Assembly: GCF_001422665.1 (NCBI RefSeq)
Contig: NZ_LMLU01000007.1
Location: 122,892 to 186,891, forward strand
DNA: 64,000 bases
Reading direction: 5' to 3'
Source of the DNA: Arthrobacter sp. Leaf234
GTDB lineage: Bacteria > Actinomycetota > Actinomycetes > Actinomycetales > Micrococcaceae
Every line of letters begins with the position of its first letter. Positions within the stretch are counted from its first letter, which is position 1. Both the position numbers and the translations under genes were made by a program. Of the stretch, positions 14,034 to 62,719 are shown piece after piece. Under the pieces are notes generated by a model, which had not been told where the DNA came from, did not search any database, and worked only from the letters and a program-made list of their open reading frames with translations.

Positions 14034-15881
14034 ATGCCCTTTCTCCGAGGCCCCTTCCTCCGGGCCCTCTCTCCCGTTCCTTCGGCTGTTCAGGGCACGG
14101 CGCCGCGTCGCCGGGTGGCCCTCGCGCTGCTCCTGACGGCCGTCGCCCCGCTGGCTGCGCTGCAGGGTATCTCGCCCGCAGCGGCAGCGACCACGCCCTG
14201 CACGCCCATGAGACAGTCGGTCTACCAGAGCATCAACCCGACGACGACGGCCTCCCTCCTCACGACGTCCGCCACCGAGGCCGTCGACTCACGGTCCTCG
14301 GGCTTCACCGAGCTCAAGGGTCTGGTCTTCCGGGCCTCCAGCACCGCCGCGGCAGGACTTGTGCCGATCCACCGGCTGTTCCTCAACGGCGACTACTTGC
14401 TCCTTCCCGATGTCGCGGGAATCGACGAGTACGACACCGTGCAGTCGCGGTTGGGGTACAAGCACCAGAAGGTGGCGTTCTACGCTTCGCTCACGCCCGT
14501 TACGTGCGGTGTGGAAGTTCGCCGCTACCACCGCGCAGGCAAACACCGTTTCAGTGTCTCCGCGGCAGACGGCCGGACGCTGCGGAGCGCCGGTTGGGCG
14601 GACGAGGGCGCCCGATTCTGGGTAGCCCCGGTCACGACAACAGCCCCGGCTCCTGCTCCGGCTCCCACCACCGCCCCCAGCCCGGCTCCCACCACCGACC
14701 CCAGCCCGGCTCCCACCACCGCCCCGACAGTTGCTCCCAGGCCGGCTCCCACCACCGCCCCGACAGTTGCTCCGACAGTTGCTCCGACTCCGGCGCCGAC
14801 CGCTGTGTCGCCGCCGCCGGCTCCTGCTCCGTCTCCTGTTCCCGTTCCGACGGTGCCGTCCGTCACCGTGCCTGCCGACTGGGTGCTGTGGAGCAGCATC
14901 GCGCGACCAGGAGACGACATCAACAGCGTCCTGGCCAAACCGGAACTCTCGGGGAAGATCCTCAAGCTGCCTGCCGGTGTCTTCGAGGTCAGCAACTTCC
15001 GGGACGCCTCGGTTGCCATCCGCGTGCCGAAGCAGGTCAAGGGAGTCATCGGGGAGGGCCGGGACACCATCCTGCGCATCAAACCCAACACCTCGACCTT
15101 CGGCGGCACTGTTCCTGCGCAGGGCACCGGTCAGACGAATCAGCTCTACGTGCTCCGCATGAACGAGGGACTCGTCCCGCAGGTCCTGTCCAACTTCTGG
15201 CTTCAGGGGACGCCACAGGGTCATCTGTTCAACGGCATCATGGTCGGCATGTCGAAGCCGGGCACGACCGTCGAGAACCTCCTGATTACCGGCATCGACG
15301 GTAACGCGGGGTCGCCTCCGGGCGAGACGTTCGGCCTCAACTGGTGGCGGGGAAGCGACTCCATCACCCGGGACATCGAGGTCGACGCCTACCAGTGGAG
15401 CGGCGACCGGTTCGCATCGAGGGTCCGGGGCGCGCAGGTCGGCGCGTCACCGATCGGGTACAACAGCCACGATCGGGGCAAGCTGTGGAATGCCTTCACG
15501 CACGACTCCCGCTTCGGCATGCCGACCTTCTGGCAGTCGAACAACTCGGAGACCTGGAATCTGCAGTCCATCCGCAACGTCATCGGCATCAATCACGAGG
15601 AGAGTTTCGGTACCGTTCACCACGAACCGGTCATGCACAGCTCCAAGACACGTCGTCACGTGAATTTCATGTCCTCCCGTGGGGACGGCGCGCTGACCAT
15701 CATCGGCGCCACCAACGACGAGTGGATCAACCCGACGACGTCGGGACCGATCGGCAAAGGCAAGAAGATGCTCGTTCTCACGCCGACGAACTACACGGGC
15801 CCGAACACCAACCGCATCGTCACGCCCCCGCGCATCCAGCACGGCAACGGCACGGCCGCTCCCTGGCTCTGGGCGCACTGA
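14034..15881 (+). CDS. Secreted multidomain protein: DUF5648-like region, Pro/Thr/Ala linker, beta-helix domain
   Basis: 615 residues. A basic N-terminus and hydrophobic stretch (VALALLLTAVAPLAAL) ending in an AAA-type cleavage region form a signal peptide. Residues about 55-205 resemble DUF5648 repeats (LGYKHQKVAFYAS; AGWADEGARFWVA). A 70-residue Ala/Pro/Thr-rich linker follows. The remaining 330 residues look like a parallel beta-helix domain with PPGETFGLNWWR (428-439), GMPTFWQ and GINHEE. The last domain is clearly related to a prophage protein encoded at 34418-35749. It is probably an extracellular or cell-surface protein acting on a polysaccharide, but no catalytic residues can be assigned. 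Confidence 0.75.
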   Translation: MPFLRGPFLRALSPVPSAVQGTAPRRRVALALLLTAVAPLAALQGISPAAAATTPCTPMRQSVYQSINPTTTASLLTTSATEAVDSRSSGFTELKGLVFRASSTAAAGLVPIHRLFLNGDYLLLPDVAGIDEYDTVQSRLGYKHQKVAFYASLTPVTCGVEVRRYHRAGKHRFSVSAADGRTLRSAGWADEGARFWVAPVTTTAPAPAPAPTTAPSPAPTTDPSPAPTTAPTVAPRPAPTTAPTVAPTVAPTPAPTAVSPPPAPAPSPVPVPTVPSVTVPADWVLWSSIARPGDDINSVLAKPELSGKILKLPAGVFEVSNFRDASVAIRVPKQVKGVIGEGRDTILRIKPNTSTFGGTVPAQGTGQTNQLYVLRMNEGLVPQVLSNFWLQGTPQGHLFNGIMVGMSKPGTTVENLLITGIDGNAGSPPGETFGLNWWRGSDSITRDIEVDAYQWSGDRFASRVRGAQVGASPIGYNSHDRGKLWNAFTHDSRFGMPTFWQSNNSETWNLQSIRNVIGINHEESFGTVHHEPVMHSSKTRRHVNFMSSRGDGALTIIGATNDEWINPTTSGPIGKGKKMLVLTPTNYTGPNTNRIVTPPRIQHGNGTAAPWLWAH

Positions 15882-15901
15882 GCAGTAGACGAAACCCCTG
15901 A

Positions 15902-15939
15902 GCGACAGGAGAGGCCGAGCATTCGGCTTCTCCTGTCGC
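15902..15939 (+). terminator. Strong hairpin between the secreted-protein and HNH genes
   Basis: Seventeen-nucleotide arms (15902-15918 and 15923-15939) pair with a single G-T wobble around a GCAT loop, 20 bp after the stop codon. There is no T-tract, but the stability and position suggest the terminator of the secreted-protein gene. Confidence 0.7.
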
Positions 15940-15973
15940 CGTCTACCTCGCCGATCGTGGCAGACTCGGCACC

Positions 15974-16828
15974 ATGGTGGCCTTGATCATTGCGTGGAGC
16001 ACGACGGGTCCGCAGTGGCCGGGGATCTACGCCGCTGATGCGGAGACGGTCCGGCGCACGGGCATCATCCGGCGGCACTGGCCGCTGCCAGGGCCTCCGG
16101 TCGCTCCCGTCGGGGCGGACGTCTGGCTGCTGATCGCGCACGGAGGACCCGCTATGCAGGGCATCGCGGGTCACGGCGTCGTCGCAGGCGTTTCTCCGGG
16201 GACGTCCGATGGACAGGGTATCGACGTCGACTTCGATCTCCTGGTGCAACACGGCGACCAGATTCCTTCGTCACTCCTCGAGAACACGGTGCAGGGCTTT
16301 CTCACATCGGCGGCCGCGTCCGGACTGTTGGACGACCGGCAGGCTGCAGGCCTGAGGAGCCTGTGGGCTGCGTCGGTCGTCCCGGCCCAGGGGGCAGTGC
16401 ATCCGCCGCCGGGTGTCCTGCCGCTGCACCTCACCCGCCGCCTGATCGTGGATCGTTCCGAGTACGACGACGACCTGCGGCGCACTGCCCTCGCCCATCG
16501 GGGCTCGGCCTGTCATGCCTGTGGGCTCGACATGGAGTCGACGTACGGGGAGCACGGGCGGGACCTCGTCGCACTCCACCACACCACTCCCCTGGCGCAT
16601 CTGACGGACCGGTATGACGTGGACCCGACAGCGGACCTGGTGCCCCTGTGCCCGAACTGCCACGTTGTCGCCCACAGCCGATGGCCGGTGTCCTATGGCG
16701 TGGAGGAACTCCGGACGATGCTTCGCAGCGGAGGCCACCTGCGCGGCGAGATCGTGACCGATGAGCAGCTCGCCGCAGAGGCCGCCGCTGAACGACTGCT
16801 GCGGGCGGACGGGACCCCTGGGACGTAG
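15974..16828 (+). CDS. HNH endonuclease with N-terminal PUA/EVE-like region
   Basis: A 284-residue protein. The C-terminal McrA-type HNH module has CHAC (180-183), DLVALHHTTPL with the catalytic His pair (202-203), and CPNCH (226-230). The N-terminal part contains ADVWLLIAHGG and GIAGHGVVAG, which recalls PUA/EVE modified-base-reader domains; this second point is inference. Such two-part proteins are often modification-dependent (type IV) restriction enzymes. It is the last host gene before the prophage attachment site, and its start lacks a clear ribosome binding site. Confidence 0.75.
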   Translation: MVALIIAWSTTGPQWPGIYAADAETVRRTGIIRRHWPLPGPPVAPVGADVWLLIAHGGPAMQGIAGHGVVAGVSPGTSDGQGIDVDFDLLVQHGDQIPSSLLENTVQGFLTSAAASGLLDDRQAAGLRSLWAASVVPAQGAVHPPPGVLPLHLTRRLIVDRSEYDDDLRRTALAHRGSACHACGLDMESTYGEHGRDLVALHHTTPLAHLTDRYDVDPTADLVPLCPNCHVVAHSRWPVSYGVEELRTMLRSGGHLRGEIVTDEQLAAEAAAERLLRADGTPGT

Positions 16829-18074: not shown

Positions 18075-18451
18075 AGGACCGTCAACTCCCCACCCATGGA
18101 CTCCCGCAGGTCAGCGAGCTCGTCGGTCGTCCCCTGGATGATCCAGTTCGGGCCAGTGAGGAAGGCACCAGCGCCGCTCAATCCAATCGCCATGCCGAGC
18201 TTCCCTGTCGTCAGTTCCTCCTCGTTCGGGAACCACCGGACCGCGGTGTCTTCGTCGCAGACAATGAGGACCTCGCCGTCTTCGTTTTCACCCTCAGCCG
18301 TTTCACCGGGGCAGTCACCGTCGGAAGCTAGGACAGCTTCGCGGAGGGCATGCACATCCTCGTAACTGGCGTCCTTCCCCACTCCCCCGCAAGCCGTGAG
18401 GGTGAGTAGTGCCGCAAACGCGCCGGCGGCAATCAGTGGTCGGTTCTTCAT
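18071..18451 (-). CDS. Prophage lipoprotein
   Basis: 126 residues. Charged N-terminus MKNRP, hydrophobic segment, and lipobox LTAC-GG (Cys21) mark a signal-peptidase-II lipoprotein exported and anchored to the membrane. The mature part is acidic with two further Cys that could form a disulfide (DGDCPGET and LIVCDEDT). It lies inside the repressor operon, 4 bp after the repressor stop, so it should be made in the lysogen. Lipoproteins in this position can block superinfecting phage DNA entry; this role is inferred from context only. Confidence 0.8.
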   Translation of the reverse strand: MKNRPLIAAGAFAALLTLTACGGVGKDASYEDVHALREAVLASDGDCPGETAEGENEDGEVLIVCDEDTAVRWFPNEEELTTGKLGMAIGLSGAGAFLTGPNWIIQGTTDELADLRESMGGELTVL

Positions 18452-18455
18452 GGTT

Positions 18456-18908
18456 CTACGTTTCCCGTTCTAGATCGTCGTGCCCGACGTCAGGATCTTT
18501 GTCCTTCGCAGCCAGGTGCAGTGGTTCGTCAGGTACAGCTTCCAGCCTCCGGATGGGGCTTGGCGCTGCTGCAGATTGGGTGAAGCTCCTGATGAGCTCG
18601 GTGATCGCTTTTCGTTGCCTGGCCGATAGGAGGTTTGCCTCCGGCGGCGGGACGTAGGGTGCGCTCATCGGCCTGTGGATGCCTGCCCATTCTGAGACGA
18701 TTTGCACGTCGACGCCGAGCGCTTTAGCTACGCGTTCCACCACGTGGGGCTCAGTCTCCCTGTCCTGGAAGATCAGGCTGGTCACGGTGCTGGTGTGTAA
18801 GCCGGCTGCTTTCGCTAGCTGGCTCATGGATGGACGTTGGTTCCGAGGGTCTACTCGGCCTGCGTCAACCATGGCTTGCGCCCACGGTTCGGGGGCATCT
18901 CGTCTCAT
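18456..18908 (-). CDS. HTH repressor, first gene of the lysogeny operon
   Basis: 150 residues from the ATG at 18908. An XRE-like HTH occupies about residues 25-75 (SMSQLAKAAGLHTSTVTSLI ... ERVAKALGVDVQIVSEWAG). A linker with three prolines (YVPPPE) and a C-terminal region follow. The operator half-site GTAGAC overlaps its start codon region and further sites lie upstream, consistent with autoregulation. A -10-like TAGAAA (18919-18924) and -35-like TTGCGG (18941-18946), 16 bp apart, would start the RNA within a few nt of the ATG. Confidence 0.8.
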   Translation of the reverse strand: MRRDAPEPWAQAMVDAGRVDPRNQRPSMSQLAKAAGLHTSTVTSLIFQDRETEPHVVERVAKALGVDVQIVSEWAGIHRPMSAPYVPPPEANLLSARQRKAITELIRSFTQSAAAPSPIRRLEAVPDEPLHLAAKDKDPDVGHDDLERET

Positions 18909-23261: not shown

Positions 23262-23756
23262 ATGGGATCCCACCAGTCAGCCGCCATGAAGTCCGATGTG
23301 TGGCTCACCCCGCCATGGATCATTAAAGCCCTCGGACCATTCGACCTCGACCCTTGCTCACCGTTAGACCGTCCCTGGGATACCGCAGCGAAGCACTACA
23401 CGATTGACGACGACGGGCTCTCCCGCGAATGGGAAGGCAACGTCTGGATGAACCCGCCCTACGGGCTGCAAGCAGCCACTTGGCTTGGGCGCCTTGCCAA
23501 GCACGGCGACGGCATTGCCCTCGTTTTCGCCCGTACCGAGACCCGCATGTTCTTCGACTGGGTGTGGCCCTATGCCACCGCACTCCTCTTCATCGAGGGC
23601 CGGCTGCACTTTCATCACCCCGACGGTAGCCGAGCCAAAGCCAACAGCGGCGCACCCTCCGTCCTCATCGCCTACGGAGACCGGGCGGCACGCAAGCTCA
23701 TCAACTCCGGTGTACCCGGCGCCCGCGTCGACTTGCGGAAGGCGGTAGCAGCATGA
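23262..23756 (+). CDS. Dam-like phage DNA N6-adenine methyltransferase
   Basis: 164 residues. DVWLTPPWI, FDLDPCSP (DPCS at 30-33) and VWMNPPYG (catalytic NPPY at 64-67) place it in the phage Dam family (PF05869), which has no separate target-recognition domain. It probably methylates adenine in phage DNA and may protect it from restriction. A TTG at 23250 overlapping the preceding stop is an alternative start. Directly downstream begins the oppositely oriented accessory cassette. Confidence 0.85.
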   Translation: MGSHQSAAMKSDVWLTPPWIIKALGPFDLDPCSPLDRPWDTAAKHYTIDDDGLSREWEGNVWMNPPYGLQAATWLGRLAKHGDGIALVFARTETRMFFDWVWPYATALLFIEGRLHFHHPDGSRAKANSGAPSVLIAYGDRAARKLINSGVPGARVDLRKAVAA

Positions 23757-23769
23757 CCTTCCTTGCCCT

Positions 23770-24486
23770 CTATGCGCCGCCTAGTCCCGACGGCTCACTC
23801 TCGCTCAAAAATACTGCGAATACGGTGTCGACTTCCTCCGCTGTGTTGCACTGTTGCACTTCGCTCAGTAGTCGGACCAACTTCCTTCGTTCCTCACCAC
23901 CCTGCGGGGCCACCAACCATCGCACAAGCACGTCGGGCAACACACTCATCAGTCTGATTCTTGCGTCCATTGGTCGGCGCAAGGCCTGCGAAAGGACGGC
24001 TCGCACTCCTGTCAGGATCTCTTGGTCCTCCAGGTCACCATCAATTTTCGCTGCACCCACCAGCACTATGAGCGACGAGAGAAAGGGCCGATCAGGCTCA
24101 GTGCCTGCTTCGACGGTTCCCTCGACCAGACGCTTTCTCCACCGCTTCTCGATTCGTCGGTGGGCTACCTGTTGCTCCAGATGGTGGGAGAGCGAGACAA
24201 GAACCTCGCGCACTGACCTCTCAAACCGCAATTGGCGCTCGTACTCAATGCGATCTCTCTCAGCCTGCACGCGAGCACGTTCAGTCTTCTGCGCCTGCTC
24301 TTTTGCTTGCTGGGCAGTCACGACAGAGAAGTACAAGACGCCAATGGAAGCCAAGGCAGCGAGTAAAGGAATCACCCCGATCGCAAGTACTTCGAATGCA
24401 GACGGTCCCTCCTGGAGGGACCGTGCCACTTCAAGGATGGCGCACGTCACGGAGCCGCCCTCATCACACTGGAGTATCTGCACCAT
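23770..24486 (-). CDS. Membrane-anchored coiled-coil protein (accessory cassette)
   Basis: 238 residues. One transmembrane segment (VLAIGVIPLLAALASIGVLY, about 32-55) is followed by a coiled coil rich in Gln, Glu and Arg (AKEQAQKTERARVQAERDRI) and a helical C-terminal domain. No family recognised. It runs opposite to the early operon and its base composition is lower in GC than its neighbours, suggesting separate acquisition. TAAGGT lies 6 nt before the ATG, a possible -10 for leaderless expression. A role with the restriction-like gene next to it is possible. Confidence 0.7.
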   Translation of the reverse strand: MVQILQCDEGGSVTCAILEVARSLQEGPSAFEVLAIGVIPLLAALASIGVLYFSVVTAQQAKEQAQKTERARVQAERDRIEYERQLRFERSVREVLVSLSHHLEQQVAHRRIEKRWRKRLVEGTVEAGTEPDRPFLSSLIVLVGAAKIDGDLEDQEILTGVRAVLSQALRRPMDARIRLMSVLPDVLVRWLVAPQGGEERRKLVRLLSEVQQCNTAEEVDTVFAVFLSESEPSGLGGA

Positions 24487-24550
24487 GGAATTACCTTATG
24501 TTGGAAGCATCGGTGCACTGCGTGCGAGTACCAGCATCAGCGGTACCAGA

Positions 24551-25507
24551 TCACAAGTGCTGCTTATGGCCTGTCTGATAGATCATGAAAGTAGCTGTCT
24601 CACCAACGCGCCACACCGCGGCAATGCCATGTTCCGCGAGGAGCTCGAGCAGGTCATCGTTCGGCGCAGCCGGGAGCAGCAGCCGGCATGGTCGACCGTC
24701 GACATATCGTCGGTAGTCGAGCAGCTGCCCGAGGCCGGCACGGACGCTGTTACGCGTGGCATCAGCCTTCGCTTCGTAGAGAACGCCCTCCGTGGCGTCG
24801 TGGATGTCCGTGAAAAGCGGCATCGTGCTGCCCCTGGGGTACACCTTGAAACGGTCGAGCTCACGTCCACGGCCCTGCAGAACCTGCTGGAAGACCTCGA
24901 CGAGGTCCTGCTCCCGCTTCCTACTCGTACCTGCCTCTACAGCGGTGCGCTCGAACTCGCCGACAGTGTGAGCCTCGAGCGGCACCCGTACCGCGGAGCC
25001 CGCATCCATGGGCGCGATGGCTTTCGAGCTCACGTCTTCGTCGCGGCGCAGCACCTCGCCGACCGGGCGAAGGTGGAACACGAAAACGGTGCGCATGACT
25101 CCGTCCGCGCCCGGAGCGTCCTCGGTCGAATGGGGAAACTCGTCATCGAGTGCGAACTCGCCAAGGTAGATGCGGGTCAGCCCGTTCCCGGTCGCGGCCT
25201 TACCGCTCACACCGAATACGCGGACCGCCCGACCATTCAGCTTGTGGTCACGCAGGGCCAGGTTGCCCCGGTGCATCTTCTGCGGACCCTCCCGGTCCAT
25301 GCCGGTATAGGAGAAAACCTCGCCGTCGGTCGACCACCCGTCGAACTCGTACCCGTTCTCGCGACCCACCTTCGGGTCAGAGAACAGCAGGACATTCGGC
25401 GACGAGCTCGGCGTCTCCATTCCCTGAAACCTCGTACCGCCGTACATCGCGGCGATATCCTCACGCGTGCCCGTCCAGCCGACGGGAGTCCCCCACTCAA
25501 TAGCCAT
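24551..25507 (-). CDS. Predicted modification-dependent (type IV) restriction endonuclease, SRA-like plus PD-(D/E)XK
   Basis: 318 residues. The N-terminal half (LLFSDPKVGRENGYEFDGWS, FSYTGMDREGPQKMHRGNLA) resembles the ScoMcrA-like SRA domain that reads modified bases. The C-terminal part has LFTDIHDATEGVLYEAKA, giving Asp234, Glu245-x-Lys247, then QLLDYRR (261-267), a good PD-(D/E)XK nuclease core with a Q-x3-Y motif. This pairing suggests an enzyme that cuts modified DNA of competing phages. TAGCCT lies 6 nt before the ATG and there is no ribosome binding site, predicting a leaderless message. Confidence 0.75.
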   Translation of the reverse strand: MAIEWGTPVGWTGTREDIAAMYGGTRFQGMETPSSSPNVLLFSDPKVGRENGYEFDGWSTDGEVFSYTGMDREGPQKMHRGNLALRDHKLNGRAVRVFGVSGKAATGNGLTRIYLGEFALDDEFPHSTEDAPGADGVMRTVFVFHLRPVGEVLRRDEDVSSKAIAPMDAGSAVRVPLEAHTVGEFERTAVEAGTSRKREQDLVEVFQQVLQGRGRELDRFKVYPRGSTMPLFTDIHDATEGVLYEAKADATRNSVRAGLGQLLDYRRYVDGRPCRLLLPAAPNDDLLELLAEHGIAAVWRVGETATFMIYQTGHKQHL

Positions 25508-25605
25508 GGTGTGAGGCTAGCTCAGGTTTCGCCCTTCTACTCGAGGTCCTTCCCGCATAGCCGCGAGGCCATCGACGACGGCGCTCGAGCGCGCTATCCG
25601 GTGGA

Positions 25606-26268
25606 CTATCTACCGCCGCGTTGGAGCTTCTTGAACCAGATAGTTCGGCGCCTGTTCAGCTCCTTACGTTGCCTTCTGTTGAGCGGTTCCACCCCTTCAG
25701 GGAGGGACGGTGCAACTGACACCCCGCCCACGTCGAGGAACGTCGACTTCGCAGACCGAACGCATCCCTCGAGAAGCACGAGACTCATCTGCCGCATCTT
25801 CGGTGTGTCGGTAGGCCACTCGATGAGGGTTTGCACGAGTACCGCGACCGAATGTGTAAGCACCTCCCGGATCTCCCCTTGTTTCACCGCAGGTGTTTTC
25901 GGGTCATTGAACTTGATTGCCAACTTAGGTAATAGGGCCGACAAAGGATCGATTATGTCCGCGAGCTCAACCGTCTCAGTACCTGATAAGCGGAGCTTTA
26001 TGAATGCAGTCTCCAGGCTTATGAATTCGCGCCTTGGGTTGAACTCCCCTTCAGCATCGAAGGTAAGAATGAACGCGTTGAGAGCCGCACTGAGTTCCGC
26101 GATGGCTTGCACGCGCCGCTCATTTTCCGCGTTGCGACGCGCTTGCTGGTTGGTCGACCGAACTACTGCGAGCGCTACGAGCCCGCCTATAACCGCTGCT
26201 ACGAGTGAGCCAATGGAACCACTAAAAAGCTCCGCTGCCCAGGATGGTTCAGATGCGGTCGAAATCAC
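25606..26268 (-). CDS. Membrane protein, third gene of the accessory cassette
   Basis: About 220 residues from a GTG. An N-terminal transmembrane segment (GSLVAAVIGGLVALAVVRS, about 17-35) is followed by a polar helix (TNQQARRNAENERRVQAI) and an uncharacterised helical domain ending in a very basic tail (RRQRKELNRRR). Architecture parallels the protein at 23770-24486, but I see no clear sequence identity. TATGGT lies 6 nt before the GTG, fitting leaderless transcription. GC content is lower than in adjoining phage genes. Confidence 0.65.
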   Translation of the reverse strand: MISTASEPSWAAELFSGSIGSLVAAVIGGLVALAVVRSTNQQARRNAENERRVQAIAELSAALNAFILTFDAEGEFNPRREFISLETAFIKLRLSGTETVELADIIDPLSALLPKLAIKFNDPKTPAVKQGEIREVLTHSVAVLVQTLIEWPTDTPKMRQMSLVLLEGCVRSAKSTFLDVGGVSVAPSLPEGVEPLNRRQRKELNRRRTIWFKKLQRGGR

Positions 26269-26292
26269 TCCTCGACCATATCGGAGGTCCTG

Positions 26293-26634
26293 ATGGCTTG
26301 GTTCAACGCTGATGACAAGATGCACTCCCATCCAAAGCCGCGACAGGCGGGCCTCGAGGCGATGGGTCTGTGGCTCATGGCCGGCACGTACTGCTCCGAC
26401 TACCTGACCGAGGGGCTTGTGCCCGGCTGGTACGTGGACTCGTGGCCTCGCGGCCGCCGGTTGGCCCAGCAGCTCGTGACCGCACGGTTCTGGGAGGCCT
26501 CCGGATCCGACTGGCAGTTCCTGTCCTGGACCGAGTACCAGCGCACGAAGGAACAGGTTGAGGAGGACCGTGCGAAGGCCCGCGCACGACAGAAGGCGTG
26601 GCGTGACAAAAGGCGTGACAAGCCAGACGAGTAA
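26293..26634 (+). CDS. Replisome-organiser-like phage protein (N-terminal domain)
   Basis: 113 residues. AWFNADDKMHSHPKPRQAGL then EAMGLWLMAGTYCSDYLTEG and WQFLSWTEYQRTKEQVEED match the N-terminal domain of actinophage replication proteins in which a DnaD/replisome-organiser-like region is followed by a basic coiled tail. Relatives are usually longer; here a TAA ends the frame just before a hexanucleotide repeat. It probably helps initiate phage DNA replication. Confidence 0.65.
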   Translation: MAWFNADDKMHSHPKPRQAGLEAMGLWLMAGTYCSDYLTEGLVPGWYVDSWPRGRRLAQQLVTARFWEASGSDWQFLSWTEYQRTKEQVEEDRAKARARQKAWRDKRRDKPDE

Positions 26635-26711: not shown

Positions 26712-26806
26712 TACTTAAGCCACCTCCCAGCATGGATGGGTTTTCAAGAAGTGGTCCAAGACAAGCAAGCAATCGTCACTTAAGTGACGCGAAGGAGGCG
26801 GAACAC

Positions 26807-27199
26807 TTGCCTGCTGAAACTCCTCATCCGGTGACCCGCAACCAAGCGACGATCCTCGCGGCCCTGCTTCACGAGATCCGGCCCCGCTGGTCCACCGAAG
26901 CGATCGTCTCGCTGATCGGGAAGAACCTCGCAACCATCCCCAGCTACCCCGCCCTCTGCGAAGCCGCCATCCGGGTAGCGAACGACCCCACCAAGAACAC
27001 CCCGGCGATCATCTTCCTCGACGGCAAGCACTGGGAACGCCCCGACCAACCCAGGGAAGCACCACCATCCGGACCCAAATGCGAAGACCACGCCACTGAA
27101 CCCGCGCACACCTGCCACTGCTGCAAAGCCGACATCCTCGTCGGCGACAGACCACCCACCCACCAAGGCAAACACTGGACCCCAGGAGGCACACCATGA
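26807..27199 (+). CDS. Hypothetical replication-region protein with Cys motif
   Basis: 130 residues from a TTG chosen because AAGGAGG lies 8 nt upstream; an ATG at 26732 is in frame but has no site. VTRNQATILAALLHEIRPRW and SYPALCEAAIRVANDPTKNT form a helical region, followed by a Pro-rich linker and HTCHCCKADI. It may be the second half of a replication protein that is one chain in other phages. Confidence 0.6.
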   Translation: MPAETPHPVTRNQATILAALLHEIRPRWSTEAIVSLIGKNLATIPSYPALCEAAIRVANDPTKNTPAIIFLDGKHWERPDQPREAPPSGPKCEDHATEPAHTCHCCKADILVGDRPPTHQGKHWTPGGTP

Positions 27200-62485: not shown

Positions 62486-62719
62486 ATGACTGCTCAGCCC
62501 CGTTTCATGACCCTCACCGATGCTGCGGAGGAGTTGGCGGTGAGTCAGTCTCAGATGTACGCGCTCGTGAAGTCTGGCGACCTGCAAGCGATTCAGGTTG
62601 GCGGCCGCGGGCAATGGCGGGTAGAGCGGGTGAAGCTCGAGGAGTACATTGCCCGCATGTACGAGCAGGCGGAAAAGCAGCGTGGGAAGCTCAAGCTGGA
62701 AGACCTCCCCGCCGAATAG
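62486..62719 (+). CDS. Excisionase-family HTH protein
   Basis: 77 residues. FMTLTDAAEELAVSQSQMYA then LVKSGDLQAIQVGGRGQWRV and KLEEYIARMY form a MerR/excisionase-type winged HTH (helix-turn-helix domain 17). Convergent with the integrase and 12 bp from its stop, it is the best candidate for the recombination directionality factor. TATGAT lies 6 nt before the ATG, so it may be leaderless. Confidence 0.8.
   Translation: MTAQPRFMTLTDAAEELAVSQSQMYALVKSGDLQAIQVGGRGQWRVERVKLEEYIARMYEQAEKQRGKLKLEDLPAE

Follow-up and report, generated by a model that had tools for sequence, protein, structure and literature searches.

Three leftward genes, which we call A, B, and C, lie between a Dam-type N6-adenine methylase gene and a gene that we use as the anchor of the locus, and their orientation runs against the early operon of the surrounding prophage (Table 1). 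The window, by which we mean the whole 64,000-nucleotide stretch that was analyzed, sits on contig C7 of a 3.52 Mb source genome. A 47,886-base IMG/VR contig, which would correspond by position to approximately 15,974-63,859 of the window if the two are colinear, contains the three genes together with the anchor (26293), all at 100% identity. Since this viral contig includes both the cassette and its anchor, the cassette lies within a prophage, as originally predicted, and the prophage terminase shares 78% identity with its counterpart in Arthrobacter phages Kukla and TripleJ. The predicted coordinates of the three genes were correct, and so was their lower GC content, which is 0.600 for the cassette versus 0.652 for the prophage (42 of 907 windows of the same size fall below the cassette), with B alone at 0.641. 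Relatives of A, B, and C were found in 4 (own genome included), 10, and 10 of 395 family genomes, respectively, so all three can be taken as real genes. The anchor gene returned no match in a Pfam search.

Table 1. Positions of the cassette genes, their borders, their promoter boxes, and further genes discussed in the text; positions refer to the window unless a locus is named
Feature	Position	Strand	Description
Dam-type N6-adenine methylase	23286..23756	+	Left border of slot; PF05869, E 5.8e-12
Gene A	23770..24486	-	Predicted one-pass membrane protein, 238 aa; C-x7-C before membrane helix, charged cytoplasmic helix, unknown domain
A box	24493..24498	-	TAAGGT; leaderless-type -10
Gene B	24551..25507	-	Predicted SRA domain ~1-157 and PD-(D/E)XK nuclease ~190-318; 318 aa
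B box	25514..25519	-	TAGCCT; leaderless-type -10
Gene C	25606..26268	-	Predicted one-pass membrane protein, ~220 aa from GTG start at 26268; long helix 16-70, then helical bundle
C box	26275..26280	-	TATGGT; leaderless-type -10; first T 12 nt upstream of GTG
Anchor gene	26293..26634	+	Right border of slot; phage relatives partly annotated as replication initiation protein
Genes of a possible second site	L032 14084-14698, 14963-16234, 17085-17615; L033 15233-16579	-, +, -; +	Membrane genes with -12 box; second C without box
Excisionase-like HTH gene	62486-62719	+	Named by eye; adjoins integrase; TAnnnT at -12

Predicted products of the cassette

A single N-terminal membrane segment had been predicted for both A and C, and hydropathy places it at residues 33-51 in A and 18-36 in C. 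Lysine and arginine are more common in the 30 residues after the segment than before it in 17 of 17 A- and C-type proteins, the stretch before it being mostly shorter, and this charge balance suggests an N-out, C-in topology. Pairs of cysteines with C-x6/7-C spacing precede the membrane helix in all 3 A-type and in 6 of 14 C-type proteins and could form a disulfide loop on the outside. The structure model of C (pLDDT 81, built with seven sequences) shows the long helix and helical bundle, and matches from a fold search with it were uninformative. Relatives of A occur at the corresponding position of another prophage (L033) and near an integrase gene (L041). Neither A nor C matched any known exclusion protein, and we consider them candidate exclusion or abortive proteins on the basis of their predicted architecture.

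The prediction for B was an SRA-like reader joined to a nuclease, and both parts of this assignment are borne out by a structure model containing an SRA fold and a PD-(D/E)XK fold, by a profile match to ScoMcrA (E 3.7e-8), and by a complete nuclease active site, Asp234, Glu245-x-Lys247, and Gln261-x3-Tyr265. These catalytic residues had been placed correctly: D234, E245, K247, and Y265 are invariant in 46 of 46 homologs, and Q261 is present in 45. Candidate residues for the aromatic walls and the carboxylate of a putative flipped-base pocket recur in most homologs (Y53 in 43/46, D56 or E in 44/46, Y67 in 44/46), and their Y-x2-D spacing equals that of Tyr55/Asp58 in TagI (PMC6212794), to which they may correspond. 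By fold and by inference, B looks like a type IV-like enzyme. ScoMcrA (SBD-SRA-HNH) and TagI (SRA-HNH) are HNH cutters, whereas B is a PD-(D/E)XK protein without a sulfur-binding domain. The NTP-independent MspJI family, with SRA followed by PD-(D/E)XK, shares both fold and domain order with the model of B, but a family profile search returned no MspJI chain at E values up to 10, and B differs from that family in its invariant E-x-K and its length of 318 residues. The excerpted account of HHPV4I (SRA-wH-HNH) describes a modification-dependent nuclease that, like B, is carried by a virus, although one that is unlike B in coming from an archaeal virus, in having an HNH domain, in depending on m6A, and in tolerating loss of its SRA domain (PMC10101028).

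A variable slot in related phages

Searching viral sequences with the anchor gene recovered 20 loci from 19 distinct phages, L062 being a repeat of L061 and L052 being the phage of the window itself. The same search of genomes gave 31 places, 22 of which were examined (17, together with loci already seen and the window) and nine weak ones left out. If the slot is counted as occupied whenever a leftward membrane-protein gene lies at that spot, then it is occupied in 6 of the 19 viral phages (window, L053, L054, L060, L061, L068) and in 6 of the 22 genome places (window, L032, L033, L044, L228, L236), where the window is counted in both sets and a few phages are shared between them. Four more occupied slots (L003, L035, L043, L045) came from searches with B or C and are a biased sample. 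This amounts to 15 distinct phages with leftward membrane genes at one common position within the replication region. L070/L233 have possible small leftward ORFs without a membrane gene, and L065, L229/L230, L237, and L243 are ambiguous and uncounted; in Arthrobacter phages Sarge and Jinkies, the slot contains no leftward gene.

At the right border of the slot, 12 of the 15 have a relative of the anchor gene, separated from the cargo by a rightward ORF in L053, L054, L061, and L068. In L035, L043, and L045, a different gene replaces the anchor, and the slot was recognized through the next gene, a relative of 26732-27199. The cargo itself varies. B is present in 5 of the 15 (window, L003, L032, L033, L035), a C-type gene occurs without B in seven (L043, L044, L045, L053, L054, L060, L061), and small three-segment membrane proteins occupy L068, L228, and L236 and are also found in L045, next to C. 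Related phages thus exchange genes of these kinds at one slot. The location of this slot and the apparent separate switches of its genes are new here; titles and the beginnings of abstracts covered by a literature search mentioned neither the slot nor any enzyme named as a relative of B. In the prophages of genomes G116 and G031, the region 3-7 kb rightward of the slot contains a second C-type gene along with more membrane genes (Table 1) and could be a second cargo site.

Putative promoter boxes of the cargo genes

Promoter-like hexamers had been proposed for each of the three genes. As sigma-70 pairs these do not hold up, because the cassette contains one such pair, located within C, versus 0.7 expected by chance. 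What does stand is a TAnnnT box at -12 of each start. According to the part of Zheng et al. consulted (PMC3160421), TAnnnT boxes approximately 12 bp upstream of the start are read as marking leaderless genes, which make up an average of 19% of genes in Actinobacteria. We first spotted the regularity by eye in upstream sequences and tested it afterwards. A TAnnnT exactly 12 nt upstream of an in-frame start within 12 codons is found for 18 of 23 slot genes versus 1 of 183 lytic-strand ORFs, and extending the range of starts to about 100 codons leaves 18 of 23 slot genes (18/180 starts) versus 1 of 245 lytic-strand ORFs (1/1069 starts; Fisher 1.4e-22), where the control ORFs are the output of a simple custom caller and some are perhaps not genes. 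The sole control match (L033 15233-16579) is itself a membrane-protein gene. With starts fixed before the motif was seen, 13 of 23 have the box at -12, and no other offset between -6 and -40 accounts for more than 2; the start in L068, which is outside these 13, was shifted after the motif was seen. The -12 box is missing in five slot genes, namely B of L032 and of L035 (box at -13), B and the 135-residue membrane protein of L003, and the gene in L236, as well as in the partial B of L073.

A scan of both strands of the window from 15.9 to 64 kb, allowing any ATG or GTG and ORFs of at least 50 aa, gave five matches, so that from 48 kb the box selected the three cassette genes and only two other ORFs, a 51-aa ORF that probably matches by chance and the excisionase-like gene listed in Table 1. 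The same scan of related phages also picks up non-cargo ORFs, for example 14963-16234 and 18298-18618 on the lytic strand of L032. None of the 13 ORFs called in the flanking host stretch has a -12 TAnnnT, so this stretch supplied no positive control. The -12 TAnnnT is the leaderless signature of high-GC Actinobacteria (PMC3160421), to which A, B, and C all conform, and boxes of this type fit expression of the cassette in the lysogen. If this is correct, then sequence alone might suffice to flag, by this box, the genes of actinophage prophages that are expressed in the lysogen.

Possible functions of the cargo

Taken together, sequence and structure models lead us to give a probability of roughly 0.6 to the reading that A, B, and C are anti-phage cargo, expressed in the lysogen and carried in the variable slot of a family of temperate phages. 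Each gene would be transcribed from the prophage as its own leaderless mRNA, against a silent early operon. B would take up a flipped, modified cytosine in its SRA pocket, 5-methylcytosine or one of its derivatives being most likely, and then cut incoming phage DNA close by, in the manner of MspJI- and TagI-type enzymes. A and C, seated in the membrane and facing mostly the cytoplasm, would stop superinfection at some step, either by blocking DNA entry or through abortive infection triggered at the membrane, and the three proteins would act as independent layers without an obligate complex. A more specific version, to which we would assign somewhat less than even odds, is a two-layer, mix-and-match prophage immunity slot that combines membrane proteins of N-out/C-in topology, able to replace one another, with a 5-methylcytosine-dependent SRA-PD-(D/E)XK nuclease. 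The membrane proteins would form a new family of exclusion or abortive proteins, some with an extracytoplasmic C-x7-C loop, and nearly every gene would be an autonomous leaderless unit that can be swapped singly and remains active in the lysogen when the phage itself is silent.

The proposed target of B comes from the distribution of C5-cytosine methylases (PF00145), which are found in 0 of 5 slot phages with B (window, L003, and the prophages of G116, G031, and G377) versus 12 of 21 without B (one-sided p 0.030), a count in which some viral records are fragmentary, a match below the cut-off in L071 is scored as an absence, and the fragment L073, where no such gene was seen, is excluded. In whole genomes, taking the 370 scanned as G000-G369, a C5-methylase occurs in 1 of 10 with B versus 158 of 362 others (one-sided p 0.030), or in 1 of 8 (p 0.076) if two broken copies of B are dropped. 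G031 has both B and a C5-methylase, approximately 150 kb apart, and genomes with C but without B have a C5-methylase in 4 of 7 cases, three being scored absent as unlisted. These statistics treat related phages as independent, and the contrast, which is weak, is a hint that B may target 5-methylcytosine. The neighboring Dam-type methylase would argue against m6A at that enzyme's own sites as the target.

The original prediction treated the membrane proteins as partners of the nuclease, a view that is borne out only in part. In an obligate module, A and C would tether or control B at the membrane, and phage DNA would be cut as it is injected. This arrangement gains from the position of B directly behind a membrane gene in all five fully read slot copies (gaps of 98, -4, 55, 60, and 118 bp), and also in a sixth, partial copy at a contig edge (L073), which follows a membrane-protein fragment near an ssb-type gene. 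A C-type gene is ahead of B in four prophages; C and B thus co-occur in three prophages other than that of the window, one of which has A as well, so that the co-occurrence elsewhere demanded by the original prediction is observed. However, C occurs without B in the seven slots above, and in L003 an unrelated membrane protein takes the place of C beside B. Outside the slot, profiles of A and C (E 0.01) matched nothing in 92 nuclease loci (88 distinct places, as four were fetched twice, several of them cut by contig ends), and relatives of the anchor or its next gene were likewise absent from these loci. Of the 85 rows outside the slot, 8 have a membrane gene immediately upstream in the same orientation (13 of 90 if the five slot rows are included), and 251 of 1207 called neighbors have a hydrophobic segment, so the pairing of B with a membrane gene is a property of the slot. 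Because C occurs in phages that lack B, and B in loci that lack both A and C, the three genes are best described from their distribution as separable cargo rather than an obligate three-part machine, and the separate box of each gene argues in the same direction. We regard the obligate machine as improbable.

Also improbable is a role for B in the phage itself, degrading methylated host or rival DNA during lytic growth or co-infection rather than protecting the lysogen. B is phage-borne, and the viral HHPV4I is proposed to exclude other viruses in the excerpted account (PMC10101028), but B is oriented opposite to the early operon and has a leaderless-type box of its own, both of which suggest that it is expressed outside the lytic program. 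It is also conceivable, although unlikely, that the slot is merely tolerant of insertions and that its membrane genes have no effect or contribute to host physiology. In favor of this, 13 of 19 viral phages and 16 of 22 genome places have no clear leftward membrane gene (a few ambiguous cases included), and neither do Sarge and Jinkies. Against this stand the repeated occupation by a small set of protein types, most of them encoded behind a box of their own, and the resemblance of B to restriction enzymes.

If the cargo does act against phages, then it would supply candidate superinfection-blocking membrane proteins in Micrococcaceae, and prophages could stack defenses as single self-promoted genes. 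To our knowledge, the known actinophage prophage defenses all come from Mycobacterium or Gordonia. Those described from these 2 genera in the consulted part of PMC7542560 include a membrane protein (Sbash gp30/31, CarolAnn gp43/44, Butters gp30/31), and the defense genes of Sbash and Butters lie in the central genome region. In Sbash and CarolAnn, the same source describes a membrane protein (four-pass in Sbash) and a cytoplasmic protein that are both required, with no nuclease, unlike the cassette, where A and C are one-pass by hydropathy and C stands alone in several slots. PdpSau of Staphylococcus prophages is also similar by description, as an accessory prophage gene whose product has an N-terminal membrane helix and a cytoplasmic C terminus, but it is linked to lysis genes and A and C to the replication region, according to the excerpt of PMC10127798 consulted.

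Homologs of B also occur in other settings. That of Pseudarthrobacter siccitolerans (L034 7943-14841) lies between PDC-M32A/B and AriA/AriB-like genes, in what sequence matches identify as a defense-gene cluster, the AriB match being weak (7e-5). Gordonia phage Sidious encodes a homolog as gp63 (L001 5995-8394), followed by two methyltransferase genes in an order resembling restriction-modification systems. Some homologs (L039 9301-10413 and one in L184) begin with roughly 60 additional residues which, by eye only, resemble a small DNA-binding domain.
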